From: Straminergon stramineum
Lineage: Eukaryota; Streptophyta; Bryopsida; Hypnales; Calliergonaceae
Assembly: GCA_963920665.1 (NCBI GenBank)
Contig: OY987270.1
Span: 20,982,019-21,046,018 of the forward strand
Reading direction: 5' to 3'
Length of the DNA: 64,000 nt
Made by a program: the position numbers and the translations under genes. Under the pieces are notes generated by a model, which saw only the letters and a program-made list of their open reading frames with translations, was not told where the DNA came from and searched no databases. This document shows, piece after piece, positions 3,893 to 34,400 of this stretch (positions are counted from its first letter, which is position 1; each line of letters opens with the position of its first letter).

Positions 3893-4804
3893 TTAACCCC
3901 TCAAGTTCCTTAACTTTATTTTCACCGAAAACGCTCCAAAATTGGCATTTCTAGTTTATGAATCAACTTTTGGAAAAATAACATTTTTGGGAACATGTAC
4001 CATAGGATCTTTTAGTATGCTGACTTGAAAACATGTGCAAAAAATTTCAAAAATTTCCATCATATAAATTGCAAGATATGAGTTTTCAAATTTACAAAAA
4101 TCCAATTTTGGTCCCTGCAAAAAACCGGGCAGCTGCACTTCACAAGCTCGCATTTGTATGAAAAAATGTCCAAAACAGTGGTTCTTCTTTGGATTCATTC
4201 TTTGATTCAAGTTGGCTACATGCTCGAAAAATTTCAGATCATATTGAATTGTACAACATATAGAAAAAATATAGTAAGTATAATGAAGTAGAAAATGATT
4301 CAAAATACAAAATTGTTAAAAAAATTTATTTATGGAATTCCAAAATGCCAATCCCAATGGTTGTCATGTTACAATAAAAAAATCTACTTCCAATCATTTA
4401 ATTTTTTTGAAAAATATAGAAATTTGAGTAAATAAAGGACTTCTAGGTTTATTTTAGAGTAGAGAATCTAAAACTACCCACAAAATAAAATTCTTCATAA
4501 CTTTTGATTCCTTGATCAAAATAGAATGATTTAAAGCTTTCTATGCATGTACAAATATAGGGAACCAATTTCAAATTATTTTTTTCATTTGCCCAAATTG
4601 CCTGTTTTCAAAAAAAGTAATATATTAGGCTATAACTTTTGACTTGCAATTCCAAATGTCCTAAATATTAGTATATATGAAAGATATTCCTTGTTCCCAA
4701 CTTCTATTAAATTTTGGTTGGAAAACATGGAAATCTCCACTCACATGTGCCTGTCCAAAATTTCTATGTTGCCAAAAAATGCAACTTGGTCCTTTAGGGG
4801 TTAA
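3893..4804 (+). mobile_element. TTAA element 1, piggyBac-like, 912 bp
   Basis: It starts TTAA-CCCCTCAAG and ends CTTTAGGGG-TTAA, so it has short inverted termini inside a duplicated TTAA. R copies A and B lack it. There the flanks are joined with TTAA but no insert (TTAATTAA at 26,514-26,521, a single TTAA at 32,689-32,692), while the sequence on either side matches (CTTTCTCAAAATTCT on the left, TAGAATAGAGACACTTGCAT on the right). The interior is AT-rich with no open frame. A reversed relative lies at 33,553-34,400 and another at 14,297-15,788. TTAA duplication with CCC ends is the piggyBac hallmark; the superfamily call is an inference because no transposase is present. Confidence 0.8.
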
Positions 4805-5763
4805 CTAGAATATAGATACTTGCATTACAATAGTAGTTGAGCAATGATGTTTTAGTTTTCAATTCTAGTATTTTGTTGCCTTTGGAGGATGAAAATTAGA
4901 TGGAAGAAAAAAAAAGAGTTTCTTTTCTAAATATGACCAATTTTGTAACAATTTTAGTGAAAGGAAGAGTCACAATCAAATTCCTTTCCCTTTGACAAAA
5001 GTATTGAACTATCATTGCTTGTCTTAAATGACAAGTTGATGATTTTTTTATGAGTTCAAAGATTTTGTTGAAGTATTAAAGTAGCCAACAAGAGGGGGAG
5101 TTCAACAAGTCCATTGAAAGTCCCCCCCCAAAGTCCTAACTAAACGGCCTTCTCGTTGTTGAAAATCGCTCAAAATTGCCTTTTCTAGTGCAAAAAGAAA
5201 AAAAATTAAAAATGGCATTTTTTTGCTTATCTAACAATAGGATCTTGCAGTAGGCTTGCATGAGAATGTGTTGAAAGGAATTTTAGAAAGTTTGACTATA
5301 TGGATTGCAAGATATATCCGTTCAAAGAGAAGAAAACATGGTTTGGAGGCATTGTGACAAATTAGTATATGAGACTTTGAATCCTCCTAATCTAAAATTT
5401 TCACACTACACATTTTGAATTTGAAAAAATTAATTATAAATAATTCAACTGAGAATCTAGGAAAAAATCCAAAAATTTAAACCGATTTTCATTCTTCAAA
5501 AAGGTTTTAGATAGAAGTAGATATGAGATAGAGAAAAAAATAAACTATTAATAACTCTAAGATGGAATGAGAACACACCAATCCCATTTGTGAGATTGTT
5601 CAAACAATCAAAGTTAGCATTTTGGAACTTTTTATTTCGAAAAAATGTGAAAATTGAACTTAGAAATGAATCATGTATCTTATACTAATTCTACATTTTC
5701 AAGAAGATGCTTTGATTGCCTATAAAATATGATGCTTTGTAGCCATCTCTTTTTTGGCACCAT

Positions 5764-5875
5764 CACTAGAAGAAAAGTGTAAGGATTTCAACACAATCAA
5801 CTTGATGTTTCTGCATTATAGAAAACAAAAACATCAAGTTGATTGTGTTGAAATCCTCACAATTTTCTTCTAGTG
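5764..5875. mobile_element. CACTA-ended hairpin MITE, 112 bp, TSD CAT
   Basis: A near-perfect palindrome begins CACTAGAAGAAAA and ends TTTTCTTCTAGTG. Its arms run almost to the centre, with a short loop near 5,815-5,825. It is flanked by CAT at 5,761-5,763 and CAT at 5,876-5,878. CACTA termini with a 3-bp duplication define the CACTA (En/Spm) superfamily. No coding sequence. A second member with the same terminal motif is at 51,075-51,238. Confidence 0.85.
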
Positions 5876-6618
5876 CATGGGGCCAAATTGCATCATTTCA
5901 AAATGAATGTCTATTTTTTGCCAAACAAAAGTAATCTTTTTTGGCCAAAAATTTTCCATTTTTATTAAAAATGTAGATGGAGTCACCACATATGGATGAA
6001 AAAGTGCATAGATATGATTTAAAAGTACATTTTGGTCCAAAAGATGTATGGATGTAGAAATACAATGTTTCCCCCAATTTTTAGTGATTTCCATCCTTGC
6101 ACTTTCTCAAAAAGTAAAGAAAAAGGGTTGTTTGTAACTTTCACATCACAAATCCTAATGGAAGGAATCAAAGCTTTTTATGTAGTTTTTAATGAAAAAA
6201 AAAATTTCAAGAAATTTCAGAAACTTTGACTACATAGATTGCAAGATAAATGCATTCAAAATGAAAAAAACATGGTTTGGGGTATTGTGATGAAATAGTA
6301 TATAAAACTTTGAATCCTTGTAACCTAAAACTTTTGCACTACATATTTTGAATTTAAAAAAATTATCATGAAGAATTTAATTCAAAGTTTAGGAAAAAAT
6401 CCAAAAAAATTAGAGTGGTTTTTATTCTTTGAAAAATTGTTCAATAGAAGTAGGTATGAGATAGAAGAGAAAATTAAACCATTAATAGCTCTGAGATGGA
6501 ATTAGAACATACTAATCACAATGATGGGATTATTCTAACAATCAAATTTAACCTTGTGGGATTTTTTGTTTTGAAAAAATGTAAAAATTAAAATGAATCC
6601 TATACATTCTTTTTTTCA

Positions 6619-6836
6619 CACTATAAGATACCCACATTTTAGGTGATGAGCCTTAATTTTTTGGAATGGATTTTAGATGATGTCCAATACAACAAACCAT
6701 GTTTTTTATGTCAACATTGATGTTACATTGACATTATTTTTGACATAAAAACATGGGTTTGTTGCATTGGACATCACCTAAAATCCATTCCAAAAAATGA
6801 AGTCTTATCACCTAAAATGCAAGATTTTTTATAGTG
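6619..6836. mobile_element. CACTA-ended hairpin MITE, 218 bp, TSD TCA
   Basis: It begins CACTATAAGATACC and ends TTTTTTATAGTG. Long imperfect arms share TTTTAGGTGAT and GGAATGGATTTTAG with their complements. It is flanked by TCA at 6,616-6,618 and 6,837-6,839. The unoccupied target survives in related sequence: a poly-T run, one TCA, then AAAGATG at 15,431-15,446, and a similar junction at 33,191-33,205. The termini differ from the 5,764 element after CACTA, so it is a separate family. Confidence 0.85.
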
Positions 6837-8010
6837 TCAAAAAGATGCTTTGATTAGGGGTTTGCTATTATATAAGCCTAGGAGAATGAATTCATGAGCC
6901 TATAAGAATATAGATCTATGTTATAGGTGTTTATATCATAGAATCCTTCTACAATTAAAGTATACCTATGTTATAGATATGTATATTATAGGTGTTCATA
7001 TTATAAGCACCTTTAATGGTTGTTGTATATCTACTTATAAATATGCTCACATTTTCAAGCTCAAACACTATCATAGTTGCTTTGATTGCCCGCAAAACAA
7101 GATGATTCATAACTTTCACATCACAAATCAAAATATTACAAATCAAAATTTTACATGTAGACAAAAATATAATCTATGAGAAACATTTAAAAAAAATTTA
7201 GTTCAAGTTTTTGTAAAATGTGGATGTCTTTTGTTGTCCACCAAGTTGAAGTTTGAACTTATTGTAGTATAACCTTGGTTCCAAAGCTCCGATTGAAATG
7301 AAATTGTATTCAAAAAATGCTATTAAGTTTTTGTTTCTTAAGGTAAAGTTATAAAAAAATTTGCAAAAAATTTCTTCCATAAGAGCCTACATGGAATCCA
7401 ATTTGTTCCTCACAAGGACAATGGGCTTTAGATATCAAACACCTTTTTGGCCAATGAAGAATTCTTCACCAAGTTGTTTTTTCTAAATTCTTTTTACCAA
7501 CCATTTTCCACCACACAAAAATTCTTTCAACAAACTCGGGCAATTCTATAGTATTTATGATCAAGTGTGACCCCCCTAATGACTTTCCCTCACTATATAA
7601 TTGATTTATATTTTGCTTATGATAGTTGTAGGGTAAATTCAACAAGGGGGGATAAAAATATATTCCATTATTTTTGGAGACTATATATTCAAAAGTCCAA
7701 ATATTTTCAAGGAAAAGAAAAAAATATTGAGATTTTTTTCATTTCTATTGGCTTCCTAACCCTTCCCAACATACCCTAAATTAACACAATTAACCTTGGC
7801 CTAGCATATCTTATGGAAAATCTCTCCAAATGCCTTGAAAATTTTCTACAATGTAGATTAATTTATAAAATCGCTATGTGCAAAATTCAATCCAAGATAC
7901 TTTCCAACTTTGGTAGTCATTTTCCTACTATTGACTTTGCTTAGTCATGGTTTCTACCCCCAATTGTTGTTTTGTACTTTGCTCATATCTCTCAAGTCCG
8001 TAGATATAAA

Positions 8011-10931: not shown

Positions 10932-10933
10932 TA

Positions 10934-12625: not shown

Positions 12626-12855
12626 TTAACCATTGAACGCTGGGCTGGCGACTGTGGAAATCAGGCATTTTGGAACAGTGTGACATCATCTACTTTAAAA
12701 AAATCAAAAATATTCATTGGGAATCAAACTACTGTAGAAGATCTCCCCTTTCCACCCCTAATTTCGAGGATGAATAGTTGCAATTCTGTCCTACAGAGGA
12801 GAATTCCTTGACATTCATCAGACAAAAAATGCCCGATGTGTTGTTTAGGGGTTAA
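12626..12855. mobile_element. TTAA element 2, piggyBac-like, 230 bp
   Basis: It begins TTAACCATTGAACGCTGGGC and ends GTTTAGGGG-TTAA. The left end aligns with that of the next element (12,852 onward: shared CTGG.C.ACTG pattern), and its right end aligns with that element's right end (CATTCATCA...AAAAA...GATG). It is thus a member of the same family. Its right TTAA is also the left TTAA of the neighbouring element. Confidence 0.65.
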
Positions 12856-13232
12856 CCCCTAAACGATGGACTGGTCACTGCGGGGACAAGGTGGGCTATG
12901 CATTGCTGAACATGCATGGTTTGACCATGGGAATCAAACACTATTCATAGCAGTGAACAATATCGCAAAAAAGGCAGTTGTAGTTGCCTTCATGAAAATT
13001 GAAAGAAGGGCATCGTGAGGCCTAACACAGTGAATCTCCATACTATCCATGTCCATGCTTCCTAAAAATATGAATGAATCCAAAATGATGCTATTTTGGT
13101 CCCTCCATGATGTAGCACGCCTCCACAATCACGTTAAAAAACCCGGTTAAGAAAACACTTTCCCACATCTAGTAGACTATCTTCTTGTCATTCATCAAAT
13201 GAAAAACATCCGCATCAGCATTTAGGGGTTAA
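12852..13232. mobile_element. TTAA element 3, piggyBac-like, 381 bp
   Basis: It begins TTAACCCCTAAACGATGG and ends CATTTAGGGG-TTAA. The inverted terminus is CCCCTAAA. It shares one TTAA with the element to its left, giving a 22-bp perfect palindrome at 12,843-12,864. No coding frame. Confidence 0.7.
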
Positions 13233-14084
13233 CCAATTCAGCCTATCTCCAGCATGGGGAAGGTTGAAGAGCTATTTTTTTCCATGTAGAGAAATAGATT
13301 TAAGAAGGATTCCATAGTTTCTTACATTTTTTTCCTCAAAAATAAAATGACGGGGAATTTTTTTCGTGAAGATTTTGTTTGCTAGGTGTTTGCCCCATTC
13401 TTGATATGTAGGCAAATCTATTTCCATCCATAGTCTAGTTAGAAAATCGATGTAAATGATCGTTGTAGCTTTCAATATTCACCTCCTGGACATTTATGCT
13501 ACTTCTATTGTTCATACTCTACATGAGTTGTCATGTATACCATAGTTGATCTGAAATTCAAGAGCCTAAGCTGTGAGAATGGGAGGCTAGTCAGAAATGG
13601 GTGATCTCCTTTAAGGGGCTGTGTGACACCTTCTTCTCCCCATTCTTCAATCTTCATAGAATGAGGATGTGGCATTCTCTCATGGAATTCCAAAGGGCCC
13701 ATTCTATGAAGATTTGAGAAGTTTTTTTCTTCTCTTCTCAAGGTGAAGACTAAATGGACATGAAGAAATTTCTCCATTTTTCCATTTCTCTCCAGTCTTC
13801 ATTCTCGAAAGGGGTGTCACATCAAAATTAAAGGTTCCTATTTATCAATCCATATCTTCTCATTCTTCATAAAAGTTTCATTCTTGGAGAAGGTGTGACA
13901 ACTCCCTGTGATAGGAAGGTATTATGCCTCCCTAGATACTAGAGAGAGACTTTTAATGCTTGAGAGAGACTTCCTATTTATTCAAGGAGACAATTTTGTT
14001 AACTAGATGGAACCCCTTTTTGAGGATGCAAAAGGGACCCATGCCTTATAGGGCCAAATGCTCTAGTGCTTGAATATGTCAAGT
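13233..14084. other. Non-coding, fragments of a GTGTGAC-ended repeat
   Basis: Contains CATTCTTCAATCTTCATAGA at about 13,650 and CTTCTCATTCTTCAT at about 13,858, which match in inverted orientation sequences at 11,470-11,580 and 10,960-10,985. This is probably one or more short relatives of the 10,934-11,581 element. No gene recognised. Confidence 0.45.
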
Positions 14085-14296
14085 CAAGTTGCTCTTGGTT
14101 GAAAATCTTAGCCATCTCTTTGAGTAAGGCCTAACAAATTTCTAGAAGACTACGATAGGCTAATACCTCAGAACCATAGATTTTGTCTATTTAATTAATC
14201 TTGCAATAGAAAATATTGAATCTCATAATAAATAGATATGGACCGACTCTCGTCTCTCTTTGGGTTATTCCAAGACCATGCAAAGTGCCATTACAC

Positions 14297-15788
14297 TTAA
14301 CCCTTAAAGGACCAAGGCCATTTTTCTATCAAAAAACACTCAAAACTACCATTTCTAATCTGTTCATCAAAGAAAACAATTATTTTTTAAGAATCTAACC
14401 ATAGGATCTTGTACTTTACTTGTTTGAGATGAAGTGGTAAGAATTTCATGAAGTTTGACCATATAGATTGAGAGATATTAGCATTCAAAGTTGGAAAAAA
14501 AAGTTTTCTTGAACACCGGCCTGCAATTTCAAATGACTTTGACTACCTTCTATTGAAATTTTTTGCACTATGGACTTTGATTTAAAAAAAATTCGGTTGA
14601 ATAGTCTAGGAAAAAATTGAGTTGATAGTCTAGGAATTTAAAAAAAACAAAAAATCTCTAGATTTTCATTCTATAAAAAATTGTTAAGTAGAAGTAGGTC
14701 TAAGATTACAAGAAAATCTAAATCGTTAATAGCTCTGAGATAGGATTGAAACACAATAATCCCAATGGTGAGATTGTTCTAGCAAGCAAACTTAACCCCT
14801 AAAGGACCAAGTGTCCGTTCAACGTACGCAAGAAATCTTGGGTAGGCTCCTACGAAGTCATTTTTAGTCGGATGTTCATGAAATTTGAACATAATGTGTA
14901 ACTATGTATCCCCTTCTTGAAAATCTAATTTTTTTTCCAATCGGGTGCCTGAATCAAAAGTTATGCTGCCCTGAACTTTGCAGGCAGCTTCGGGTAGCAT
15001 GTGCAAAACTCTTCCTATGATTTTGAAATTTGGCGGGTGTGTAGCTTACATGATCTAAGATGCAAATGTCAAAAAAAATAACCCTATTTAGTGTAAGAAT
15101 CTCATTCTAGAAGGAGTTCAAGTTTGCAGGCCATGTCGAGCAAGGTTGGAAAAAAACTTTTTCATCTAACTTCAAATGTTATAATTGTTCAATCTGTGCA
15201 GTCAAAATTTCTAGAACTTTTTCCACATGTTCCCAAATAAGTCTAGTTCAAATTTGTACGGTTGAATTTTGAAAAAAAAAAAAAATTTCATTTTTTTCTT
15301 GCTACCCTAAAAAGTGTCAGTTTTTGACAATTTTTGCCCAAAATATGCCTTAGTCCTTTAGGGGTTAAACTTGTCAAACAATTTTTTCTGAAAAATTGTG
15401 AAAATTACATTAAAAAATGAATTCTATAACTTTTTTTTCAAAAGATGTTTAGATTGCCTAAAAAACAAGATCGTTCATAAATTTCACATCACTAATCCAA
15501 ATGGAATGAATTAAAGCTTTAGATGTAGACAAAAGTGTAATCTATGAGGGAAAAAAATCAAATTTTTGTAAATTTATGTTTTTGCCCCTCAAATGAAAAT
15601 TTGGGGTTTTTGTGATATAACTTTTGCTTCTAGGCACCGATTGAAATGAAATTTATATTCCCACAAAGCGAATTAATTTTTCTATCTTGTAGGAAAGTTC
15701 CAAAAAATTTCATGAAAAATTGAGGTTACAAGAACCTGCCCAAAATCCATTTTGTTGCCGAAGGGAACAATATTCCTTTAATGGTTAA
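14297..15788 (+). mobile_element. TTAA element 4 with nested insert
   Basis: It begins TTAACCCTTAAAGGACCAAG and ends TTCCTTTAATGG-TTAA. After removing the nested 577 bp element it measures about 919 bp, close to the 912 bp element at 3,893, and interior blocks correspond (CCATAGGATCTT; ATTTCATGAAGTTTGACCAT). The outer flanks match the flanks of a different TTAA element at 26,992-27,222. Confidence 0.7.
14792..15368 (+). mobile_element. TTAA element 5, nested, 577 bp
   Basis: It begins TTAACCCCTAAAGGACCAAG and ends CTTAGTCCTTTAGGGG-TTAA. The inverted termini match at 15 of 16 positions, the clearest after the 24,805 element. It interrupts a sequence represented without insert at about 6,535-6,560 (ATCAAATTTAACCTTGTGGG). 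The interior has no open frame; it holds AT-rich sequence with repeated short phrases about every 100 bp. Confidence 0.8.
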
Positions 15789-16305
15789 GGTAGACCAACC
15801 CATTTCTATCAACTAACTAATTTCTGTCATCCTATTTTTGGCCCCAATTCCACCTCCAAAATCATCCAAATTCATCCGTTTGTTGACAAGATTGTTGCAT
15901 TAATGCCAACAACAAATAATGTGTCACTACTTTATTGGTGAATACTTCCTTGCCAATAGATAGATAAAAAGGCAATTATGAGTTGCTTATAAGATGTTTA
16001 TGACTCCATTCCATGAGTAGTTTTGTAATTTTAAGGCAAACCACTTCAAAAATTCTCAGAAATTACAATTTTCATTGGAAAAGTAAAATTCCACTTGGGT
16101 TTGATTCTTGAAACAAGTGTACACCTCTGAAAAATATTTGCCCCTCTTGGAGTTGGCCCCCAAGATATTCTAATCAGGGTGGTAATAGGCTTGCCTACCT
16201 TCCTATTTTTTTTGTCTTGGGCTCTTGCTTTGCATGGTCACATCTAACGAAGTGGGGTATCTTATCTTGGAGTGCTTATGGTCCTTGGTTTGATCCTGGT
16301 ATACT

Positions 16306-16536
16306 TCAACCCTAGAACAATGATGAGGATTGAAATTATTTGATGAATGACAAAGGATATCTCTATAGTAGACAAAGAAGCAATTCTTCATCTACTATTT
16401 TTATGGTGGGAGGTGGGGGCATGCAAAGTCTTCTTAGGTATAAGTTAGCCTTTATTGAAGGATTTTCTTTTTTTAGAAGTATATAGATTCAATTACATCA
16501 AAAACCAAGAGCACCCCTATGTCATTCCAAGGTTAA
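16306..16536 (+). mobile_element. TTAA element 6, 231 bp
   Basis: It begins TCAACCCTAGAACAA (TTAA degraded to TCAA) and ends CATTCCAAGG-TTAA. The R copy at 27 kb lacks it: there the flank reads CCTGGTACACTTTAAAACAG, with a single TTAA at 27,755-27,758. The element at 17,128-17,375 is an inverted copy of the same family. Confidence 0.75.
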
Positions 16537-17127: not shown

Positions 17128-17375
17128 TTAACCCTAGAACAACGCTGGGGTGCTCTTGGTTTTTGTTGTAGTTAATTGAATCTCTATACTTCTAAAAAAA
17201 GAAAGGCCTTCAATGAGGGCTGACTCATGCCTAAGAAGACTTTGCATGCCCCTAGTCCCCCACCTCCTATCACAAAAATAATAAATGAAGAATGGCTTCT
17301 CTGTCAACTAACTTACAAAGATATCCTTTGTCATTCATGGGATGATTTCAATCTTCAATGTCCTTCCAAGGTTAA
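17128..17375 (-). mobile_element. TTAA element 7, 248 bp, inverted relative of element 6
   Basis: It begins TTAACCCTAGAACAACGC and ends CCTTCCAAGG-TTAA. Its reverse complement aligns along its length with 16,306-16,536 (shared ATGAATGACAAAGGATATCT and GGCATGCAAAGTCTTCTTAG). The 27 kb R copy has the empty site with one TTAA at 27,924-27,927 between GTTGTAAGTTATG and AATAGAACATTC. Confidence 0.8.
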
Positions 17376-17430
17376 GCTTAAAATGGAACATTCGAAAACC
17401 ACTCAAAGGAAACGATAAAACAAGCTAAGG

Positions 17431-19100: not shown

Positions 19101-19123
19101 GATTGCAGTATGTAATTTGTCTC

Positions 19124-21721: not shown

Positions 21722-22269
21722 TAACTACAATCCTTCGCCTTTGTTGTGCATAACAAACTTTGTTCCTACAAGTTTCTCACGATCACAGTGTTTGAAATGC
21801 AACAACCATGTCATGGGAGTTTCTTTAATGAAGTTTCCAAAACTGGTGGCTATGGCAATAAAAAAACGTTAGCCACGATAATCTAAACCACACCCATTTC
21901 AGTTGTAAAATTGCCCTGAGTCATCATTCTAATCAATGTTTCTGACTCCATAATCAATGTGATTATTTTTATGGCAACCAAAGAACTCATCCACTACAGG
22001 CTTTTGGGTAGTTCACTTTCTACTCTAAAAAATAGTTCATTGTACTACCATCACTTCCTTCATATTTTATCTTAAGTGAATTATGAACTTCATACTTTTT
22101 GTAAGTGGTTCATAAAGAGAGCAAATGTTAACTCACTAATACCCTATAACGGTGGACATACGATAGTATTGTCTTGCACAAAAATATCTCCTTCCATTCA
22201 GGTTTGCACTGCTCACTTTATGAAACTCTTATAAGGTTGGTTTAAAATGCCTTAATGGAGTTCGAGCCT
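21722..22269. other. No gene recognised
   Basis: About 550 bp between the transposase relic and R copy A. No clear inverted terminus of the pogo-like element could be matched here to one near 19 kb. Confidence 0.5.
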
Positions 22270-23585
22270 TCTACCTTATAGAGTTCTAACATGCAATATG
22301 CATAGTCACCCACAATTGAAGGACAAATGAAGGATTGACTTGTTCCCACCCACTTTGCCCCCCCTTAAAATCTAGCCGAGTTAACCACCCCCCTTGCTCG
22401 TCCTCGAGGTTCATCCCAAGGGAAAACACAAGACCTTTTCATTTGTCACACAAGATAACTTAATATTTGGGAATTTTGAATTCATATTTGCAATCAAAGG
22501 CCCTCAATTAAGGAGTAGTGGTGCATAAAATAGAATAATTAAGTACAAAATAGGGGGGCTATTTTTTTAACATTCACCCCTAGGAAAAAAATTTGGAGTT
22601 CGAGAGGACAAGTGAGGGGATCAATTCACCTGGCTATAAAATCCCAAAGCCTTACCAACAACCAGGGTGAACTTACCCCCTCATTCGTTATTGGTTTTAC
22701 CCCTTGGAAAAAACACCAGACCTTAGTTTTTATTTGCCATGCATTATAAAAATTGGAAATTTTGAATTCATATTTGCAATCAAAGGCCCCAAATTAGCTA
22801 GGAATGGTGTAGAGAATAGATTAAATTGAGCACAAAATAGGGTTTGGTTTTTTGTTTTGTTTTTCTAAAATGCACCCTTCGGAAAAAAGTTGGGGACTTT
22901 GTTGAGAAGCACAAGCGAATGAAAATCATGTGTTCCACCAAATTCAAAACAACCAAAAAGCAAGAAATGCCAAAAATGGTTTATTACAGTAATCCTGAAA
23001 GGACAGGCCCATGACCATAAATTTAATTCAGGTCTCTCAATCCTTAAATCTGTCTGCTGCCATTTTGCAACAAGATGAATGAAATTTTACTTTGAATGGC
23101 ACCAAATTTGCCATTCAAAGAATAAATTTGTTCTGAAATGGAATCACATGTCTTATGTGATTCATAAAAATTTCAATTTTGGGGGGAAAATCTGAAATTA
23201 TTGTTAATTCTTCAAAGAAAAAGTGAAGAAAATTCATATCAAATGCAAAATATGCTCAAAAGATTTGGAATTCTTCCTTGGGCATATACTATGGTACATA
23301 ACATCATAGTATAAATTGAATTTTTGTCTCATTAGAAAATTAGAAAATCATCAAACCATGGCTTGTTGGCCAAAGTTGAAATTGCAATGAAATATTGGAT
23401 TTTCAGAATTTTTCAATTGGAGTAGAAACTACACTTGATGAAATTCATTTCATTAGTTGAGCACAAATTCCAAAAATATCATTATTATGGCTAAAATTCA
23501 CATCAAGAATATAGAGCAAGAAGTGGCTAATATACATTACAAGCTCTATCAAAAAAGAGGGATCTAAGTACTAAGGATTGCTACC

Positions 23586-23647
23586 AGAGCATAGTGCCCA
23601 AAGACCATGTTGGTACCAACTTGGTGCCAGTGTATGCACTATGCTCT
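23586..23647. repeat. Conserved palindrome in R copy A
   Basis: The arms AGAGCATAGTGC and GCACTATGCTCT (12 bp perfect) enclose a second palindrome, TTGGTACCAA. The same structure with 10-bp arms is kept in copy B at 30,675-30,732. It could be a structural feature of R. Confidence 0.7.
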
Positions 23648-24804
23648 ACCACTACTATTCCTTGGTGCTTCAAGACTAGCATTCTACTAGTAAAGGGTGA
23701 TCCTTGGATTACGCATCTTCTTCTTGTGAAAATTCAATAGTGAGGGGATTTTTAAATTGTATTCACTTACAATGCACTCAAGCAATTCTCCCAAGAAACT
23801 TAAGATGAAACATTGTTTTTTTCCATCTTACAATCCCTCTTGAAATCATGCAAAGGACCCAAATTGTCCGCAACACCCTTATAGAGTATAAAGTAATACA
23901 ACCATTCCCACCATGCACCCAATTTTGACCTCATTTACCAATGAAGAACATTTTGGGAAAAAAAAAATCCACCATTGGTATATGAAGAAGGAATCCATAC
24001 CTTAAGTTAGGTTGTTTGTTTTGTTGTGTTTGTTGCAGTGAGATTTCCTACACCGTGAGTCCTCAATCATGTTCTTGGTACCATCACAAAGCCCTCACCA
24101 AGTAGGGGTGTACAAACTTTGTTTCATGGCATTTCGACCTACAGTGTAAAAGATATTGCATTTCAAAGCTTTCATGAATTCAAAAATTATTACTTCTACT
24201 TTTATCAGTTTGACTGTGACAATGGCACATGGCACACTAATTTAGTTCTTACTGAGGGATGGAAAGGAATGGGTGTCCATCTCACTCTCCCTTGGTGCTA
24301 TGGACGTCCAATTGGTTGGACCAACAATCGAAAAAACTGTGGATTGAAATGGTTGGACTTGAGTCTGCGGTTCTTCCTGAATATCCCTTCCCCCTCCATG
24401 TGGCCAGGCATGAAGATTCAAATAACTCAAACAACCGCTGATCATCAAATCAAAAACAAAAGAATAAGTAGTAAGTTACTAGTAACTTAAGTAACGCCCA
24501 ATTGGTTTGGTTTTATCTGCAGGAACACAGGCAATGAGAAAGAGAGTACGGTAGATGCTTACATTACATATGAATGGCCACCACGTCCCTTATTAACTTT
24601 ACAGAATCTCCCATTCTGAGCAGAAAGCTTCCAGCAAGGATATGAAAATAATGCACAGTACAGTTGGGTTGAAACTCACCCAGTAGGCACAAGAAGTATC
24701 TTAAGCAGTTTCTTTCTTTCCTTCTTTCTTCTTCTGGAAATAAATGGACAAATCATTCCATTGTGAGGGAGAAAACATGTGATAGGCAACCCATTTCTGA
24801 CCAC

Positions 24805-25811
24805 TTAACCCCTCATTGCCCAAGGGGATGAAAAGTGTCCTCACATTGTCTGGCAGTCATATTCAAAGTGTTGTTACCTTTACATCCGATGTCTGAATTC
24901 AATCAAACTTGTTGGAAAAGTTTCACATATTAGTCTAGTTTCATTGGTAAAATTTTCAGATCAATCTAAGTTTTACTGAGTTTTTGAGAGCCCTTCGAAG
25001 TTCACAGGTTCAATTTGAGTTCACCACATTGAATTCTAATGGCTGCAACTTTGGGGGCTTATAACTTTTTCATAAAATGTTTGTTTTCAATAAAATTTGT
25101 TGGGTTTTGTTCCTCTTAAGGTCTAGTTATTGTGGTAAATTTTTCTTTTTCTTTTTGATTGTGGTAAATTTTTCATGTCAAACCAAGTTGTTTTGAATGT
25201 TTGGGAGCAATTCGAAGTTCAAAATGCAGACATTTTTCCATTACAATGAACTTCCGCAGCTTATAACTTCTTCATACATGGTCCGTTTTCAATCATTTTT
25301 ATTGGAAAAGTTTTGCATACTAGTCTAGTTCGTGTGGTTAAAATTTCATATCAATCAAAGAGGTAATGAGTGATTGAGAAGCATTTTAGTAGAGGGAGGT
25401 TTAGCTGTAGATGTGATTTTTTGCTACTTTTTTCAGTGTTTTTTGACATTTCAAAACAATTTTGTTGACATAATGAGTCAATCAAATGATATTTTTTTCA
25501 TGAAGTGTTTGTCTTTGGGTTTTAAATCACTTTGTAGTTAAATTTTTTTCATTTGAGTAGGTTTAGAAATCGAATTTCACCTCCGAATGTGTTTTTAAGA
25601 AAATTTCAGCATCTTTTTTCAAGACTAGAACATTATAATCTTGCAATCTATACAATCAAATGCCCCCAAATTTGTTTCACACCATCTACAACATGTACAC
25701 TACAAGATTGTACGGTTGAGATTTTCATACTTCACTGAAATTTAGACTTATAGCACTTGAAAAGCAAGGATGCTTTTACACACGTTTGGACTTTGGGCAA
25801 TGAGGGGTTAA
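24805..25811. mobile_element. TTAA element 8, piggyBac-like, 1,007 bp
   Basis: It begins TTAA-CCCCTCATTGCCCAA and ends TTGGGCAATGAGGGG-TTAA, a perfect 15-bp inverted terminus. Copy B keeps the empty site: CTCACCAC, one TTAA at 31,979-31,982, then GCAGTTACA, against the same flanks in A. The interior carries three degraded repeats of roughly 195 bp around 24,907, 25,097 and 25,298 (shared TTGGAAAAGTTT and TAGTCTAGTT). No transposase frame. Confidence 0.88.
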
Positions 25812-26149
25812 ATAGTTACATGTGTGCAAGGCATGTTTCTTCAATGGGGAAATTTTTCAGTGTGCAAAAATAGAGTTCAAAAGGTTTCCAAGTATTTTTG
25901 AGATTTTTATTTCTCAAAACATAAAATTACTATGAATTTTGGAGCGGAAAATTTCATTCCTCTAGCTCTGGTCAAGTAGACCTACCTCTTTTTGACCAAG
26001 AGCTAGTTGCAAATCCACCAAGGGTTGGCTACAATATTGAGAGTCTTGTAGAACAATCACAATGTGCCACAATAGCACCAGGAATTGTGCCATGATTCAT
26101 CATTGTTCATCTCCTCATGGGTGTAAAGAGAGTGGCCTACATTGCCAAA

Positions 26150-26184
26150 GGGGGGGGGGGGGGGGGGCGGGGGGCGGGGGGGGG
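26150..26184. repeat. G homopolymer tract
   Basis: Thirty-five bases of G interrupted only by two C. Copy B has a shorter G-rich stretch (GGGGGGTGGGGGGTGGGGGT-like) at about 32,329-32,350. Length may be unreliable owing to sequencing. Confidence 0.9.
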
Positions 26185-26991
26185 ATTAGGAATGGGTTGC
26201 CTTCCATACATTGAATCAAGGACAAAGCCCCAACGGAAGAAAGCTAATTAAACACTTTATGGTTTTCCTTTCTTTGAAGACATTTACAAAGAAAATTAAG
26301 CAACAACATGTTTCTATTGCATACCTATGCTCTAGATATTTGGGGTTGATGAAGTTTACTACTTGAGGGTTAAGTGGCTCCACACAACCAACAACTATCT
26401 CCCCCCCCCTCCCTTTGTCCCATGCAACAAGTTTTATATAACATTCTCAAATGCCTTACTTTTCTCTCTTTGGCTACTCTAAGTGGTTTGAAAAATATCC
26501 TTTCTCAAAATTCTTAATTAAATAGAATAGAGACACTTTCTTCTTAATAGTAATTGAGCAATGATATCTAAGTTTGCAATGCTAGAATTTTTGTTGCCTT
26601 TTAAAAGATGAAAATAAAATGGAAGAAAAAATGAGAGTTTCTTTTCTAAATAGTTTGACCAATTTTGTAACAAAGGTGAAAGGGAGCTCAATCACAATTA
26701 AATCCCCTACACTTTGACAAATGTATTGAACTATCATTGCTTGTCTTAAAAGACAAGGTAATGAAATTTTAATGAGTTGAAATTTTTTGTTGAAGTGATT
26801 TTCATTCTTTCAATTTGAATAAGGCTTGATAGATTTTTAGGAGATTATGATGGGCTAAAAACTCACAACCATAGATTTTGTCTACTGAATTGATCTTGTA
26901 GTTGAATATATCGAATCTCATAATAAATACATATGGCTCAGCTATAGTCTCTCTTTGGGTTATACCAAGACCATACAAAGCGCCATTACAT

Positions 26992-27222
26992 TTAACCCTA
27001 GAAGGGCCTGAAAGCCCTTTGCGGCCATGTAGTATATTATGTATTTGGTGGTATTTGATTAGGAAAACACTGACCAAATACTTTTCACGACAAAGTAAAC
27101 TAATGATCATGATAATACATAAATAAAAATGTATCATAACTCATCTATTAAACCACAATTGAAGAATTACAAAGCAAAATACAGGTTGTATAGAGGGACC
27201 CCAAGGGCCTTTCAAGGGTTAA
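26992..27222. mobile_element. TTAA element 9, 231 bp
   Basis: It begins TTAACCCTAGAAGGGCC and ends GGCCTTTCAAGGG-TTAA; inverted termini agree at 11 of 13 positions. Flanks GCGCCATTACAT and GTTAGACCAACCCATTTC equal those of the unrelated element at 14,297-15,788, so the same target position is occupied by different elements in two R copies. Confidence 0.72.
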
Positions 27223-28768
27223 GTTAGACCAACCCATTTCCACCAACTACCTAATTTTCGTCATCCTACTTTTGGCCCCAATCCTGCCCCCCAAATAATC
27301 CAAATTGGTCCATTTGTTGATAAGATCGTTGCATTATTGCTAACAACGGATAACGTGTCAATACTTTATTGGTGAATACTTAAGTGCTAGTAGATAGATA
27401 AAAAGGCGATTATGAGATGTTTATAAGATGTTTATGACTAAATTTCATGAGTGGTTTTGTAACATAATTCAAGGCAAGCCACCTCAGAAATTCACAAAAA
27501 TCACAATTTCAATTGGAAAACTATAATTCCACGTGGATTTGATTTGTGAAACAAGCACACACGTTTGAAAAATATGTGCCCCTCTTGGAATTGGACCCCA
27601 AGATATTCAGATTGCTAATCAGGATGGGATTAGGCTTGCCTACCTTACTAATTTATTTTTTTGTCTTGGGCTCTTGCTTTGCATAGTCACCTCTAAAGAA
27701 GTGGGGTATCTTCCACTGAAATGCTTATGGTCCTTGGTCTGATCCTGGTACACTTTAAAACAGCCCAATGCTTGGTGGAGAGGAGGGTTCTTCCATTTCC
27801 AAATGCTTTTTTTCTTTCGTTTCCGTTCCCATAAGAACCGTTGATCCTTCCAATTCCAAATATCATCATCCCGGCGAGCATTTGCCCAAGGGAACCATCT
27901 CATCTCATCTGTTGTAAGTTATGTTAAAATAGAACATTCAAAAACCACTCAAAGGAAACAATAAAACAAGCTATAGAGTTCTAACATGCAACATGCACGG
28001 TCCCCCATAACTGAAGGACAAATGAAGGACTGACTTGTCCCCACCCACTTTGCCACCCATAAAATCCAGCCGGGGTGAACCGACCCCAAGCTCGTCCTTG
28101 GGGTTCATCCCAGGGGAAAACACAAGACCTTTTCATTTGCCACACATGATAATATTTGGGAATTCTGAATTCATATTTGCAATCAAAGGCCCTCAATTAA
28201 GGAGTAGTGGTGCATAAAATAGAATAATTAAATACAAAATAGGGATCTATTTTTTAACATTCACCCCTAAAGCAAAAGATTTTGGAGTTCGAGAGGACAA
28301 GTGGGGGGGTCAATTCACCTGGCTGTAAAATCCCAAAGCCCTATCAACAACCAAGGTGAACTGACCCCTTGCTTGTTCTTTGTTTTACCCCTTGGGAAAA
28401 AAATACCAAACCTTGGTTTTTATTTGCCATGCATGATCAAACTTGGAAATTTTGAATTCATATTTGCAACCAAAGGCCCCTAATTAGCTAAGAATGGTGC
28501 AGAGAAAAGATTAATTAAGCACAGAATAGAGGGTGTTTCTTTCTAACATGCATCCTTGGGGAAAAAGTCGGGGACTTTGTTTGGAAGCACAAGCAAATGA
28601 AAATCATGTGTTCCACCAAATTCTAAACAACCAAAAAGCAAGAAATGCCGAAAATGGCTCATTATAGTAATCTTGAAAGGACGGGCCCATGAACAAAAAT
28701 TCAATTCAGGTCTCTCATCCTTAAATTTGTTTGTTGCCATTTCGCAACTAGATGAATGAAATTTTACT

Positions 28769-28917
28769 TTAACCCTTAAAAGACGCAGACCCCATGACCA
28801 AGGTAGTCATCAAAATTGCTCCAATTATTGGTCCAATAGGTGCATTCTATTTTTCTACAATCAACAATGAAGTCATCCACCAGACACAAAATGTCCATGT
28901 TGACGTTTAAGGGTTAA
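28769..28917. mobile_element. TTAA element 10, 149 bp
   Basis: It begins TTAACCCTTAAAAGACGC and ends GACGTTTAAGGG-TTAA. The right end resembles those of the elements at 12.6-13.2 kb (CATC.ACCAGACA.AAAATG). Copy A at the same place (23,091-23,125) has no TTAA insert but instead a short 11-bp inverted pair, TTTGAATGGCA and TGCCATTCAAA. Confidence 0.72.
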
Positions 28918-29335
28918 ATTTATTCTTAAATGGAATCGCATGTCTTATGTGATTCATAAAAATTTCCATTTTATTTATTTTTGGTAAAAATTTGAAATGA
29001 TTGTTAATTCTTCAAAGAAAAAGTGAAAAAAATTCATATCAAATGCAAAATATGCTCAAAAGATTTGGAATTCTACCTTAGGCATATACTATAGTGCATA
29101 ACATCATAGTATAAATTGAAGTTAATGTATCATTCTAAAATTATAAAATCATCAAACCATGACTTATAGGTCCAAAGTTGAAATTGCAATGAAATATTGA
29201 ATTTTTAGAATTTTTCAATTGGAGTAGAAACTATACTTGATAAAATTCATTTCATTAGTTGAGCAAAGTTTCCAAGAATATCATTATTATGGCTAAAATT
29301 CACATCAAGAATATAGAACAAGAAGTGGCCAAAAT

Positions 29336-30615
29336 TGTCACGCCCCTTAGTGACACTTACCACCTTAAATCCACCTTCCAATGCTTTCCAAGCACTTAAC
29401 ACTTTAATGGCACCAAGGGTCACGCTCCCCTAACACTGCACATGCCACGCACATCCAATGTTAGTCTCCCATTCCAACTCTTTGTGCTAAGTCCCAACTC
29501 TTTGTGCTAAGTCCCAGTCACCGGGACTACTAGCATGCACACACACCCATCATGACATTAGGGCATGTTACTTGGTAACATGGGGCGGAACTTCCATTTT
29601 ATTGTGTAAGGACCCATGGTGGCACTACTCACCATGGTCCTAACTGCCCTTGAGTGTCACCCCAACTCCATACTAGGCTCATTGTGTATTTGCTACTTTC
29701 CACTTCGTCACTAACCGGGACTCACCATTCGGGACACCTCAACACAGCCTAGCAAGGAGTGGGACTCCACCCAACCGGTGCAACGGGACACCTACAAGTG
29801 TCCCATGGTGCCTAGGAGTGGTGGTGACCCCACACCACCAACCTTGAGTCACCAGGACTCACCAAGGCTTCAAGAAGGAGGGAGGAGGGAGACCAACCCC
29901 TCCTATAGTACTCTCTGTGGGATTCAGCAGCCCCCCCCCTTTATATGTCAAAGGGAACTCTCAAAACCACTTTGGTTTTGGAAGACCACCTCATTTCTCC
30001 CGATTCGCCCTAGTTTGGGACTCCCGAACTTCCACCCGGCATAACTTTGCGGTTCGGGATCCAAATCTCACATGCGAGCCCATTTTCGAAATCTACTCGA
30101 CGAGTAGATGCCGATGGACTACTCACTTTCCCCATTTGGACAAGTCCTCACAAAGAGAGGCGTCACGCCTTCACCATGGCACTTCTCTTGGCCATAACTT
30201 GAGGCTCCTACCTTAGAACCTCGTAATTCTTGTCAATCTGGCATCCTTGTGTTCTTATCTTTCCAAGGATATGCTACATGACATATTTCATAGAGGGATT
30301 CCTCATGAACCCCTCCCTCCTAGCCCTTAAGTGTCCTGGTGCCACCGGGACACCCCTACCTTGAACGCCCATAATTTTTGACTCACAAGTCCAAATCACG
30401 CGTTCTTTGGACTGCTAGAAGCCTCTCCTCGAGACCTTTTCAAGCATGTATCACACGCCCCCAAATTTGTCTGGATCAGAGCGTTAACACGCTCTGATCG
30501 CTCGGGACTCCTAGTCCCCCTCACCTCATCTCTTGCAAGGCTTGGGGAGTCACCCCCAATGTCCCCCTTGCTCACCAGGGTGGCATGGGCATGCCTTGTG
30601 ATGAGGGTCATGACA
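29336..30615. mobile_element. Solo LTR, 1,280 bp, TSD AAAAT
   Basis: It starts TGTCACGCCCCTTAGTGACA and ends GGTCATGACA, so it has TG...CA termini within 5-bp inverted ends TGTCA/TGACA. It is flanked by AAAAT at 29,331-29,335 and 30,616-30,620. Copy A has the unoccupied target (GTGGCTAATATACATTAC at 23,524-23,541). It is markedly GC-richer than its surroundings. Similar TGTCACGCCC starts are common in plant Ty3/gypsy LTRs. No internal element region is adjacent, so it probably arose by recombination between two LTRs. Confidence 0.9.
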
Positions 30616-30674
30616 AAAATACACTATAAGCACTATCAAAAAAGAGGGATCTAAGTTCTAAGGAATTCTACCAA

Positions 30675-30732
30675 AGCATAGTGCCTGAGGCCCATGTTGG
30701 TATCAACTTAGTGCCAATGTATGCACTATGCT
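30675..30732. repeat. Conserved palindrome in R copy B
   Basis: Counterpart of 23,586-23,647, with arms AGCATAGTGC and GCACTATGCT. The central palindrome has one change (TTGGTATCAA). Confidence 0.65.
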
Positions 30733-33552
30733 CTGCCACCGCTATTCCTTGGTGCTTCAAATCTAGCATTCTGTGAGTAAATGGTGATCCTTCAATTACG
30801 TATCTTTTTCTTGTGAAAATTCAATAGTGAGGGGATTTTTAAATGATATTCACTTTAAATGCACTCAAGCAACTCCCCCAAGAAACTTGGGATGAGACAT
30901 TGTTTTTTTCCATCCTACAATCCCTCATGAAATCCTCCAAAGGACCCAAATTATCTACAACACCCTTATAGAGTTAAAGTAGACACAACCATTCCCACTA
31001 TGCACCCAATTTTGACCTCATGTACCAATGGAGTACATTTTGGAAAAAATAGACCATTAGAACATGAAGAAGGAATCCATACCTTAAGTTAGGTTGTTTG
31101 TTCATTTTGATTTGTATTGTTGTGTTTGTTACGGTGAGATCTCCTAGACTGTGCATCCCCTAATCACATTCTTGGTACCATTGGAAAGCCCTCAACAAGG
31201 AGGGATGCATAGACTTTTTTTCATGGCATTTGGACCTACAGTGTGAAAGATATTGCATTTCGAAGCTTTCATGAATTCAAAAATTCAAAAATTATTACTT
31301 CTACTTTTATCAGTTTGACTGTGACAACAGCACATGGCACACTAATTTAGTTCTTACTGAGGGATGGAAAGGAATGGGTGTCCGTCTCACTCTAGCCTTG
31401 GTGCAATGGACGTCCACTTGGTTGGACCAACAATGGAAAAAACCGTGGATTGAAACGGTCAGACTGGAGTCTTCTGTTCTTCCTGAATATCCCTTCCCCC
31501 TCCATGTGGCCAGAAATGAAGATTCAAGTAATCCAAACAACTGATCATCAAATAAAAACAAAAAAGGCCGTATGTTTCAAAAAAATAAAAAATAAAAAAC
31601 TAAAAACAAAAGAATAAGTAGTAAGTTACTAGTAACTTAAGTAATGCCCAATTGGTTCGATTTTATCTGCAGGATCACATTGAGAAAGAGAGTACGGTAG
31701 ATGCTTATTATATTATGAATGGCCACCGCGTCCCTTAAGTAAAATACTTACTTTACAGAATCTCCCATTCTGAGCACAGCAAGGATAAGAAAAATAATGC
31801 ACAGTACAGTTGGGTTGAAACTCACCCAGTGGGCACAAGAAGTATCTTAAGCAGTTTCTTTTCTTTCTTTCCTTATTTCTTAATTTCTTTCTTTCCTTAT
31901 TTCTTGCTCTGGAAATAAATGGACGAATCATTCCATTGGGAGGGAGAAAACATTGGGAGGCAACCCATTTCTCACCACTTAAGCAGTTACACATATCGAT
32001 TTGCAAGGCACGTTTCTTCAATGGGGGAAATTTTTCAGTGTGCTGAAATAGAGTCCAGAAGGTTTTCAAGTATTTTCTAGATTTTTATTTCTCAGAACAT
32101 AATTACTATGAATTTTCAAGTGGAGGATTTCATTCCTCCCACTCTGGTTAAATAGACCTACCTCTTTCCGACCAAGAGTTGGTTGCAAATTCCACCAAGG
32201 GGTGGCTACAATATTGAGAGTGTTGTAGAACAATCACAATGTGCCACAACTGTACTAGGAACTCTGCCGTAATTTAATTACTGTTCATCTCCTCTTGGGT
32301 GGAAAGAGAGCAACCTACATTGCAAGAAGGGGGGTGGGGGGTGGGGGTTGATCAGGAATGGGGTGCTTCTCTAATACATTGAATCAAGGGCAAAGCCTTG
32401 GCGGAGGAAAGAGAATAACACACTTTATGATTTTCCTTTCTTTGAAGACATTTACAATGACAATCAAGCAACAACAAGTTTTGTTTTGTACCTTTGCTCT
32501 AGATATTGGGGGTTGATAAAATTTACTATTTGATCATGTTATGTCTTTGCACAATAACAACTAATAACCAACCAAACCCTTGTGTCCCATGATGGAACAA
32601 GTTTATATAACATTCTCAAATACCTTACTTTAATTTTTCTCTTTGGCAACTCTAAGTTTTGAAAAATATTCTTTCCCAAAATTCTTCATTAAGTAGAATA
32701 GAGACACTTGCATTGCAATTGTAGTAGAGCAATTATGTCTTAGTTTGCAATGCTAGAATTTTTGTTACGTTTTGGAAGATGAAAATCAAAAGGAAGAAGA
32801 AATGAGAGTTGGATTTCTAAAAAGCGTGACCAATTTTGTAACAGAGGTGAAAGGAAGAGTCCAATGGAAATTATCCATGTATTAAAGAAATAAGAAGGAA
32901 GAGTCACAATCCCCTAAAATTTGATAGGTATACTAAATTTATCATTGCTTATCAAAGACAAGGTAATGGAATTTTGATGACTTCAAAGATTTTGTTGAAG
33001 TGATTTTCATACTTTAAAAAATTGTTAAGTAGAAGTAGGTACAAGATAGAGAACAAAACTAAATCATTAATAGCTCTAATACATGGAATTAGAACACACT
33101 AATCCCAATGGTGAGATTGGGAAGTTCACCTTGTAGGACTTTTTGTTTGAAAAAAATGTAAAAATTGAGCTAAAAAATGAATCATGTTTGTTATTTTTTC
33201 AAGGAAATGCTTGGATTGTCCACAAAACAAGATGCTCCATAACTTTCACATCATGAATTCAAATGGAACAAATCAAAACTTTCTATACAAAAAAAATACA
33301 ATCTATTAAAAACAAAATTTTAAATTTCTTTTAGTTCAAGCTTGTATGGATGTCTTTTGTTGTCTACCAAGTTGAAATTTTGGGCTCATTGTAGTATAAA
33401 CTTTGCTTCAAAGTACTCATTGAAATGAAAGTTATATTTGTAAAAAGTTCATAATTTTCTCTATCTTAAAGTAAAGTTTAAAAGAAAATTGCCAAAAATT
33501 TCTCTCATAGGAACTTGTCTAGAATCCATTTTTTCCAATGGCACTTTAGAGA

Positions 33553-34400
33553 ATAACTCCTAAAGTCTCAAATAATGTTTTTTTGGCAACATAGATATTT
33601 TGTGCAATTCTCTACAAACGGGTTTTTCATTTTTTTCCTTTGAAATTTTCACACAACATGTGATCAAGGAGTAGCTTTAAGGCACAACAATTTTTATAAC
33701 TTTTGACTACATGATTAAAAAGTCATTGCATAATATGTTTCTTTTTTCCAACTAAATATTAGTTATGAATCATTTCATTTTCATTAATGAGATGAAAGTT
33801 ATGAGAAGTTTTGGTTTGTAGGTAGTTATGGATTCTCTATTCTAAAATAAACTTTGAAGTCCTTTATTTAACTCAATTTTTAATATTTAAAAAAAAAATC
33901 ATAGGATGTAGATTTTTATTACAACATCACAACCATAGGGATTGGCATTTTTCAATTCCATAACAAAATTCTTGACAACTTAGTATTTTGAATCATTATC
34001 TACTTCTTTCTACTTACTATTTTTTCCCTATATATTGTACAATTTCAAATGATCTGAAAAATTTCAAGCATGTAGCCAACTTGCCTTTGAAGAATGAATC
34101 CAAAGAAGTGCCACCATTTTGGATATTTTTTCATACAAATGTAACCTGGAGAAGAATAGCTACCTAGTTCTTAGCTCAACCAAAAAATGGATTTTTGTCG
34201 AATCAAATGCTAATATCTTGCAATCTCCATTGAAGAAATTTCTGAATTTTTTTCCACATCTTCACAAACTAGTATACTACAAGATCCTATGGTTACATTT
34301 GTCCCAAAATGTTTATTTTCTAAATTTTGGTACTTATATTAAAAATGGCAATTTTGGAGCATTTTTGGTGAAAACATAGTCAAAAACCTTGAGGTGTTAA
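33553..34400 (-). mobile_element. TTAA element 11, reversed relative of element 1
   Basis: Its reverse complement aligns with 3,893-4,804: here the right end CCTTGAGGTGTTAA corresponds to TTAACCCCTCAAG there, and interior phrases CCATAGGATCTT-like, CATGTAGCCAACTTG and AATGATTCAAAATA-like recur. The left terminus is worn (AATAACTCCTAAAG). It abuts the right end of another family member at 33,552, so two members lie end to end. Confidence 0.65.

Follow-up and report, generated by a model that had tools for sequence, protein, structure and literature searches.

Transposons of the piggyBac type are known chiefly in animals. The piggyBac superfamily, including Trichoplusia ni piggyBac and piggyBat, duplicates a TTAA target, and the rule for its members is TTAA plus a CCYT start (PMC10175614). 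The end of T. ni piggyBac is TTAA-CCCTAGAAAGATAGTC, and the catalytic residues of its transposase are D268, D346 and D447 (PMC7351741). In plants, animal-derived piggyBac is used to excise markers precisely and to edit genomes (PMC12732532, PMC10794571), while natural members are described as occasional, red algae being the example given (PMC12732532). PiggyBac is listed among seven angiosperm MITE superfamilies in a review (PMC10004981), and a Ceratopteris repeat table holds 1230 PiggyBac entries (PMC6890710). These are labels, and the available parts of the review and the table contain no plant transposase with matching termini. Our literature search gave no report of piggyBac transposases in land plants, judged by title among the matches listed. 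One moss paper (PMC10619864) contains the word "piggybacking" alone, and the available parts of PMC5199201, PMC8634313 and PMC9499001 hold nothing useful on Sola3 placement or on plant piggyBac. An earlier note on this DNA had remarked that piggyBac is scarcely documented in land plants. Herein, we describe members of a known superfamily in a lineage for which the literature searched hardly documents piggyBac.

The window, i.e., the whole 64-kb stretch of DNA that was analyzed, contains eleven TTAA-flanked elements (Table 1), and, unlike that of T. ni piggyBac and piggyBat, their host is a land plant, probably a bryophyte. The earlier note had listed eleven such elements, including one with a TCAA site and one with a worn left end, and all were recovered when positions and ends were recounted. 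It had also given TTAA-CC(C)(C) as their start and a TTAA target with a 5'-CCC terminus as the signature of piggyBac transposition. TTAA is exact at 20 of the 22 ends (the exceptions are TCAA at the left of E6 and ATAA at the left of E11), and the base directly after it is C at all 22; CC follows at 20/22, while CCC stands at 16/22 only, the remaining six ends starting with CCA, CCT, CTC or CAC. Not all of these 22 ends are independent, because E2 and E3 share a TTAA and E4 and E9 share a site. The CC(C) start of T. ni piggyBac recurs in E7 (CCCTAGAACAACGC) and E9 (CCCTAGAAGGGCC). The four bases preceding TTAA were mixed, the commonest base occurring at no more than 11 of the 22 ends. To obtain a chance level, we counted TTAACC..GGTTAA pairs whose members are separated by 100–1500 bp and agree at 9/13 or more inverted positions. 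The window holds ten, some of them overlapping or crossing one another, whereas 100 dinucleotide shuffles averaged 0.17 and never gave more than 1. The window had no match in Rfam at gathering thresholds, and an exact 20-base terminus matched neither IMG/VR nor GTDB genome contigs.

Table 1. Positions in the window of the TTAA-flanked elements, of the paralogous sites compared with them and of the pogo-like transposase.
Feature	Position	Strand	Length (bp)	Remarks
E1	3893..4804	+	912	non-autonomous; ends CCCCTCAAGTTCCTT / CCCCTAAAGGACCAAG; TTAA on both sides
E2	12626..12855	+	230	right TTAA common with E3
E3	12852..13232	+	381	ends CCCCTAAACGATGG / CCCCTAAATGCTGATG
E4	14297..15788	+	1492	interrupted by E5
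E5	14792..15368	+	577	nested in E4
E6	16306..16536	-		inverted relative of E7 (86%); left site TCAA
E7	17128..17375	+	248	ends CCCTAGAACAACGC / CCTTGGAAGGACA
E8	24805..25811	+	1007	both ends CCCCTCATTGCCC
E9	26992..27222	+	231	ends CCCTAGAAGGGCC / CCCTTGAAAGGCC
E10	28769..28917	+	149	ends CCCTTAAAAGACG / CCCTTAAACGTCA
E11	33553..34400	-	848	inverted relative of E1 (76%, 695 columns); worn left end ATAA-CTCC
E1 empty TTAA site	26518..26521	+		segment copy 3
E1 empty TTAA site	32689..32692	+		segment copy 4
E8 empty TTAA site	31979..31982	+		segment copy 4
E5 empty TTAA site	6548..6551	+		relative of E4 interior, segment copy 1
E7 paralogous site	27919-27922			TTAT
E11 paralogous site	7435-7438			TCAA
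Pogo-like transposase	19227-21139	-		DDE_1 (PF03184) at 19227-20432

Several copies of one segment lie within the window and supply paralogous counterparts of the elements. For five of the eleven (E1, E5, E7, E8 and E11), the flanks joined across the element match another place in the window, and these elements are therefore insertions. The junction-spanning empty counterparts of E1, E5 and E8 each hold exactly one intact TTAA, and those of E7 and E11 hold TTAA with one substitution. The further counterparts of E5 carry TTAG, a gapped TTCA or, in a poor match of 62.6%, no site. Clean comparisons could not be made for the other six. For E6, the left side alone is comparable, segment copy 3 reading TTTAAAA there (near 27754), and a second insert abuts the element; the counterpart of E10 holds a hairpin of ~30 nt; E4 and E9 fill one site in two different segment copies, leaving no empty version; and E2 and E3 lie outside the repeated segment. 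Since TTAA is palindromic, an empty site alone cannot separate a TTAA duplication from one of TA or TAA, but the near-fixed outer T and A at the 22 ends do separate them. The empty paralogous sites may be sites that were never filled rather than products of excision.

The window shows no piggyBac transposase. E1, E3, E4, E5, E8 and E11 and one neighbouring region contain open stretches of 45 aa or more; three of these stretches (in E1, E8 and E11) gave no transposase match in Pfam at E values up to 5. The claim that no transposase is visible therefore stands for piggyBac, but not for the window as a whole, which contains the pogo-like gene. The source had been expected elsewhere, and a profile search for PF13843 (DDE_Tnp_1_7) in the same assembly (326 Mb, 59 contigs) returned 118 matches on contigs C1–C11, the best with an E value of 7.8e-79; stops were present in 104 of the 118 match rows. 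At 15 of 20 fetched loci, the domain sits between TTAA-CCC...GGG-TTAA inverted ends matching at 10/12 or better, where TTAA is given by the construction of the search. Such a partner with the same termini is what the earlier note had proposed to look for. With 63 alternative three-base cores as decoys, no core framed any of the 20 loci at 10/12, and at 9/12 AAA and AAT framed one locus each. The five loci with no TTAA-CCC pair reaching 10/12 were L016, L017, L021, L027 and L028. The framed autonomous elements span 4.7–7.5 kb, as against 2.1–3.5 kb for beetle piggyBac (PMC12732532).

The encoded proteins resemble piggyBac and piggyBat transposases in their DDE_Tnp_1_7 domain and aligned catalytic stretches. 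The 616-aa frame of L025 matches the solved transposases of piggyBat (2.9e-33) and piggyBac (1.7e-26), as well as the Pfam profile (3.9e-74). Its DE, DN and GVD..DQ stretches align to piggyBat, and the catalytic DDD triad is present (DEIM, VMDN, GVDVVDQ); the 698-aa frame of L026 carries TIDEMM, TLDNY and GVDVADQ. The PF13843 domain starts at residue 141 of 616 in L025 and at residue 447 of 935 in L011. Cysteine-rich tails are visible in L011, L013, L014, L025 and L026; Pfam gave no zinc-finger family, and the match of the L025 tail to that of piggyBat is weak (12.5 bits). A tree built from 8 genome proteins and 40 of 57 relatives (48 rows) put the transposases of this genome in at least four separate places, a placement more in keeping with a long presence in plants than with a single recent acquisition from an animal.

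At both of their ends, four window elements (E1, E11, E4 and E5) match autonomous elements whose middle part has no counterpart in them. E1 aligns with the ends of L024 over 1–298 (77%) and 310–912 (78.5%), and pieces of E11 align with both L024 ends at 84%, 76% and 64%. The ends of E4 match an L012-type autonomous element (71%, 62%), and those of E5 an L026-type one (72%, 66%). By these alignments, E1 derives through an internal deletion from an autonomous element of the L024 type, and E5 from one of the L026 type. E8 gave weak end matches to L012, L026, L022, L025 and L020 (E 3.5e-8 to 7e-4). For E2, E3, E6, E7, E9 and E10, no match was found at E 1e-3 among the 15 autonomous elements, which come from 20 of the 118 loci. 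These six are tied to piggyBac through site and termini only, and E8 through its weak end matches.

Copies elsewhere in the genome carry the same sites. For E1, 40 places were scored out of 6944 first-look candidates; for E7, 40 were scored out of 153, and 26 of the 40 rows (E7 included) aligned over 1–248. TTAA on both sides was kept in 3/3 other copies of E7 that were read. The earlier note had named two outcomes that would speak against piggyBac: genome copies lacking TTAA, and an autonomous partner from another superfamily such as PIF/Harbinger. TTAA is kept at 15 of the 16 ends of eight genome copies that were read and at both ends of seven more, and the partner identified is piggyBac rather than PIF/Harbinger. 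Among the autonomous copies L010, L011, L013 and L014, identity over ~6.3 kb of aligned columns is 99.1–99.3% in the 4 of 6 pairs that were compared; BLAST sums for these copies reach only 93.8–96.8%, because internal repeats are counted crosswise. Two E1-type copies on different contigs are 100% identical over 933 bp. All six of these copies are flanked by TTAA and their flanks differ. The near identity of the autonomous and of the E1-type copies suggests recent movement.

Other transposon classes could leave similar traces. A palindromic site is compatible with a TA parse, and a transposase with a DDE_1 domain lies inside the window; that enzyme might hence be what moves the elements, which would then belong to Tc1/mariner or pogo, duplicate TA and end in ACCCC..GGGGT. 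The pogo-like element, however, is bounded by 13-bp ends of its own (AGGTAGAAGGCTC) and a duplicated TA, and a precise empty site exists for it; in ends and duplication it is unlike the TTAA elements. In addition, the T preceding the central TA (21/22 ends) and the A following it (22/22) are no less fixed than the TA they enclose, and PF13843 is the domain encoded by the partner whose ends match. For those elements that have a matching autonomous partner this reading is refuted, and overall we give it hardly any credence. PIF/Harbinger (Tourist-like) MITEs, which duplicate 3 bp (TTA/TAA), are a common plant class with a similar target (PMC10004981). Against them, all four TTAA bases are near-fixed at both ends and recur in three perfect empty sites, and the partner found, in a genome searched for PF13843, is piggyBac. 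They are refuted for E1, E4, E5 and E11, and for the set as a whole they are exceedingly improbable.

The length of the duplication does not distinguish Kolobok or Sola3, other superfamilies that duplicate TTAA. Sola3 also duplicates this tetranucleotide. The terminal bases do distinguish Kolobok, since it shares the TTAA duplication but ends in 5'-RR..YY-3' (PMC9587614), the opposite of the C found here at 22/22 first positions and the CC at 20/22. For both superfamilies, the transposase found within such ends is PF13843, the domain for which the genome was searched, and the chance that either accounts for the elements is minute. Another possibility is a second, unseen TTAA-specific system that would have produced E2, E3, E6, E7, E9 and E10, leaving the large elements alone to piggyBac. 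The inner sequence of these small elements is indeed absent from the 15 framed elements (20/118 matches), but target and end profile are common to all 22 ends, and we consider such a system unlikely.

The piggyBac reading of the earlier note is supported by PF13843 genes lying within TTAA-CCC..GGG-TTAA ends and by the four elements that share both ends with them. The eleven elements are almost certainly non-autonomous transposons of the piggyBac superfamily, four of them plain internal deletions of autonomous elements elsewhere in the genome. Direct observations comprise the termini, the TTAA sites with their empty counterparts, the transposase genes within like termini, the deletion derivatives and the near-identical copies. 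By the piggyBac mechanism (PMC7351741), transposase from autonomous copies would bind the CC..GG ends, the elements would be cut out via four-base TTAA hairpins, and insertion into TTAA would duplicate it. The piggyBac transposases of the genome may move the window elements in trans, and some copies may be active today. On balance, we favor a land plant with a living endogenous piggyBac, in which several autonomous lineages that diverged deeply, and of which some have open transposase frames, are still moving or have moved very recently and feed large TTAA-specific families of deletion derivatives.

TTAA MITEs may stand under the wrong superfamily in annotations of plant genomes, because the categories of a 207-genome survey comprise five major superfamilies and, in the available part of that source, piggyBac is not among them (PMC12550479). 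With more than 100 native transposase copies, most of them broken, and with near-identical insertions, piggyBac silencing and repair in plants become testable. A native enzyme would likewise allow the seamlessness of excision to be tested. Whether plant piggyBac is old or horizontally transferred becomes testable as well.

Eleven TTAA-flanked elements (E1–E11), read in the earlier note as carrying CCC/GGG ends in a plant window, were recovered by pattern lists and paired-end scans. Their termini held as CC at 20/22 ends, but CCC was present at 16/22 only. Exact TTAA occurred at 20 of the 22 ends, and C came next at all 22; these ends are partly non-independent, because E2 adjoins E3 with one TTAA common to both, and E4 and E9 have a site in common. 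E5 is nested within E4, while E6 is related to E7 (86%) in inverted orientation. TTAACC..GGTTAA pairs with at least 9/13 inverted matches numbered ten in the window, overlaps included; in 100 dinucleotide-keeping shuffles the mean was 0.17 and the maximum 1.

Window self-comparison revealed one segment repeated in four copies, which differ in the elements they carry and therefore serve as empty alleles. The flanks of each element were fused with one TTAA, and the joint was sought elsewhere in the window. An intact TTAA was found for E1 (two segment copies) and E8 (one). For E5, one copy had TTAA, another TTAG and a third a gapped TTCA, with a poor fourth match; the counterpart sites of E7 and E11 read TTAT and TCAA. 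Among these flank joints, a clean empty site was missing for six of the eleven elements: E2 and E3 lie outside the repeated segments, the site taken by E4 in one copy is taken by E9 in another, a further insert sits directly beside E6, and the E10 counterpart carries a short hairpin. The interiors of E4 and E9 differ; their shared TTAA may have been hit twice independently or refilled after an excision, or only the inside of an element may have been exchanged. As TTAA is palindromic, an empty site alone is ambiguous between a TTAA duplication and one of TA or TAA. The outer T was present at 21/22 ends and the outer A at 22/22, whereas preceding bases were mixed; the duplication is thus TTAA, not TA or TAA. 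Control insertions in the same array have other duplications (pogo-like element, TA; likely solo LTR, 5 bp).

Features of the window and their positions
Feature	Position	Strand	Remarks
E1	3893-4804
E2	12626-12855
E3	12852-13232
E4	14297-15788
E5	14792-15368
E6	16306-16536
E7	17128-17375
E8	24805-25811
E9	26992-27222
E10	28769-28917		carried by segment copy 4
E11	33553-34400		worn left end
E10 counterpart	23090-23120		segment copy 3; hairpin ~30 nt, perfect stem
Segment copy 1	~3337-7750
Segment copy 2	~14119-17130
Segment copy 3	~22277-27921
Segment copy 4	~27972-34698
Pogo-like element	17426-22278		13-bp ends AGGTAGAAGGCTC; TA duplication; precise empty site 27972-27973
DDE_1 transposase frame	19227-20432	minus	in pogo-like element
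Frame, sub-threshold HTH_psq match	20543-21139	minus	in pogo-like element
Likely solo LTR	29336-30610		TG..CA ends; 5-bp duplication AAAAT; other segment copy without insert at 23529-23533
Near-perfect foldbacks	5764-5875, 6619-6836		CACTA-like ends (CACTAG.., CACTATAA..); 3-bp repeats beside them, CAT and TCA
Insert	16537-16960		abuts E6; segment copy 3 without it
Inverted relative of this insert	13235-13500		adjoins E3
Tandem array	63573-63945		93-bp unit, at least 4 copies
Transporter frame	37350-38258

The pogo-like element has 1060 relatives. It is unexpected in this host, since land-plant pogo is described, in the part of the source available, only as Lemi in 23 eudicots (PMC7386202).

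The earlier note had proposed looking for a piggyBac transposase in the same assembly (326 Mb, 59 contigs), and such genes were found in number. PF13843, the piggyBac transposase family, gave at least 118 matches, all above the curated cut-off, a lower bound because 116 of 473 candidates were scored. Fourteen of the 118 had no internal stop, and nine of these cover nearly the whole domain. PF13843 had no match in 14 control genomes, where the plant NAC family also had none; the control therefore shows no more than that the model gives no random matches. We fetched 20 loci (the 17 best and three lower-scoring ones without stops). In 15 of them a TTAA-CCC..GGG-TTAA pair with at least 10/12 matches, the same kind of termini as in the window, spans the transposase domain, framing autonomous elements of 4.7–7.5 kb; L016, L017, L021, L027 and L028 had no spanning pair at this threshold. 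Each of 63 other three-base cores gave 0/20 loci at 10/12, and at 9/12 AAA and AAT gave one locus each. At L011 two end pairs tie, and the one common to L010, L013 and L014 was chosen.

The L025 product (616 aa, Pfam match 3.9e-74) matched only piggyBat (2.9e-33) and piggyBac (1.7e-26) in the PDB at E 0.001, and its catalytic stretches align with piggyBat. Trichoplusia ni piggyBac has catalytic D268, D346 and D447 and a hairpin mechanism (PMC7351741). The 698-aa open frame of L026 contains all three motifs as well as a cysteine-rich tail; from the first ATG, L011, L013 and L014 are open for 840, 798 and 810 aa. Many other copies are broken. The transposases had 57 relatives, the best 51% identical over 81% (shorter stretches up to 56%); the only two with an organism name come from insects (30% and 26% identity). 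A 48-row tree, built from 8 genome proteins and 40 of the 57 relatives, put the genome proteins in at least four places, with single placements unsure because some rows, including L024 and the two insects, are long-branched.

The two ends of L024 align with E1, one with bases 1-298 (77%) and the other with bases 310-912 (78.5%), and also with pieces of E11 (84%, 76% and 64%). Both ends of L026 have counterparts in E5 (72%, 66%), as have both ends of L012 in E4 (71%, 62%). On these alignments, E1, E4, E5 and E11 are internal-deletion derivatives of autonomous elements. E8 has weak end matches only, and E2, E3, E6, E7, E9 and E10 matched none of the 15 framed autonomous elements at E 1e-3.

Genome-wide, 40 places were scored for E1 (of 6944 first-look candidates) and 40 for E7 (of 153), where 26/40 rows aligned over the whole length, E7 itself counted. 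Eight further copies (L030-L034, L043-L045) had TTAA at 15/16 ends and TTCA at the other. Seven more, 933 bp long and ~79% like E1, were flanked by TTAA at either end; L036 does not differ from L037, and all remaining pairs show 92.9–98.5% identity. L010, L011, L013 and L014 have differing flanks and are 99.1–99.3% identical (4/6 pairs compared, ~6.3 kb of aligned columns, gaps excluded); BLAST sums gave 93.8–96.8%, with internal repeats counted crosswise. From such comparisons, the piggyBac lineage seems to have been mobile in the recent past. Copies in the window are older, as E1 is 86–87% identical to its best full-length relatives.

The distribution of piggyBac across large contigs speaks against contamination as its source. 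NAC-domain genes are a streptophyte family; their 28 matches lie on contigs C1, C3, C4, C5, C8 (that of the window) and C10, which also carry piggyBac. Land plants are among the best named matches of the window's transporter frame (best 120 of 1573). In a tree of 44 rows the frame groups with nine rows, and this group of ten splits off with four rows including two Sphagnum species (support 86/86, rooting for drawing only). The host is a land plant and probably a bryophyte.

PiggyBac is described as occasional in plants, e.g. red algae (PMC12732532), and plants are named in the abstract of PMC10813416. The available part of a 2008 account describes five superfamilies in plants, piggyBac not among them (PMC2528002); another study uses five MITE superfamilies, with TTAA absent from the main text as available (PMC12550479). 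PiggyBac is listed among angiosperm MITE superfamilies (PMC10004981) and has 1230 entries in a fern table (PMC6890710), so the label already exists in plants. Among the titles listed from the open-licence literature, which were not all of the matches, none dealt with a piggyBac transposase of plants together with the elements derived from it.

The piggyBac reading of the earlier note was borne out, and the presence of the enzyme gene in number strengthens it. Confidence in the two readings that follow is slightly reduced by CCC at 16/22 ends only, by most transposase copies being broken and by the weak support for their cysteine-rich tail. The eleven elements are almost certainly non-autonomous piggyBac-superfamily transposons, four of them internal deletions of autonomous elements in the same genome. 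We also consider it fairly probable that this is a living endogenous plant piggyBac system, with several diverged autonomous lineages, still or very recently moving. The mechanism is already known; what surprises is the host.
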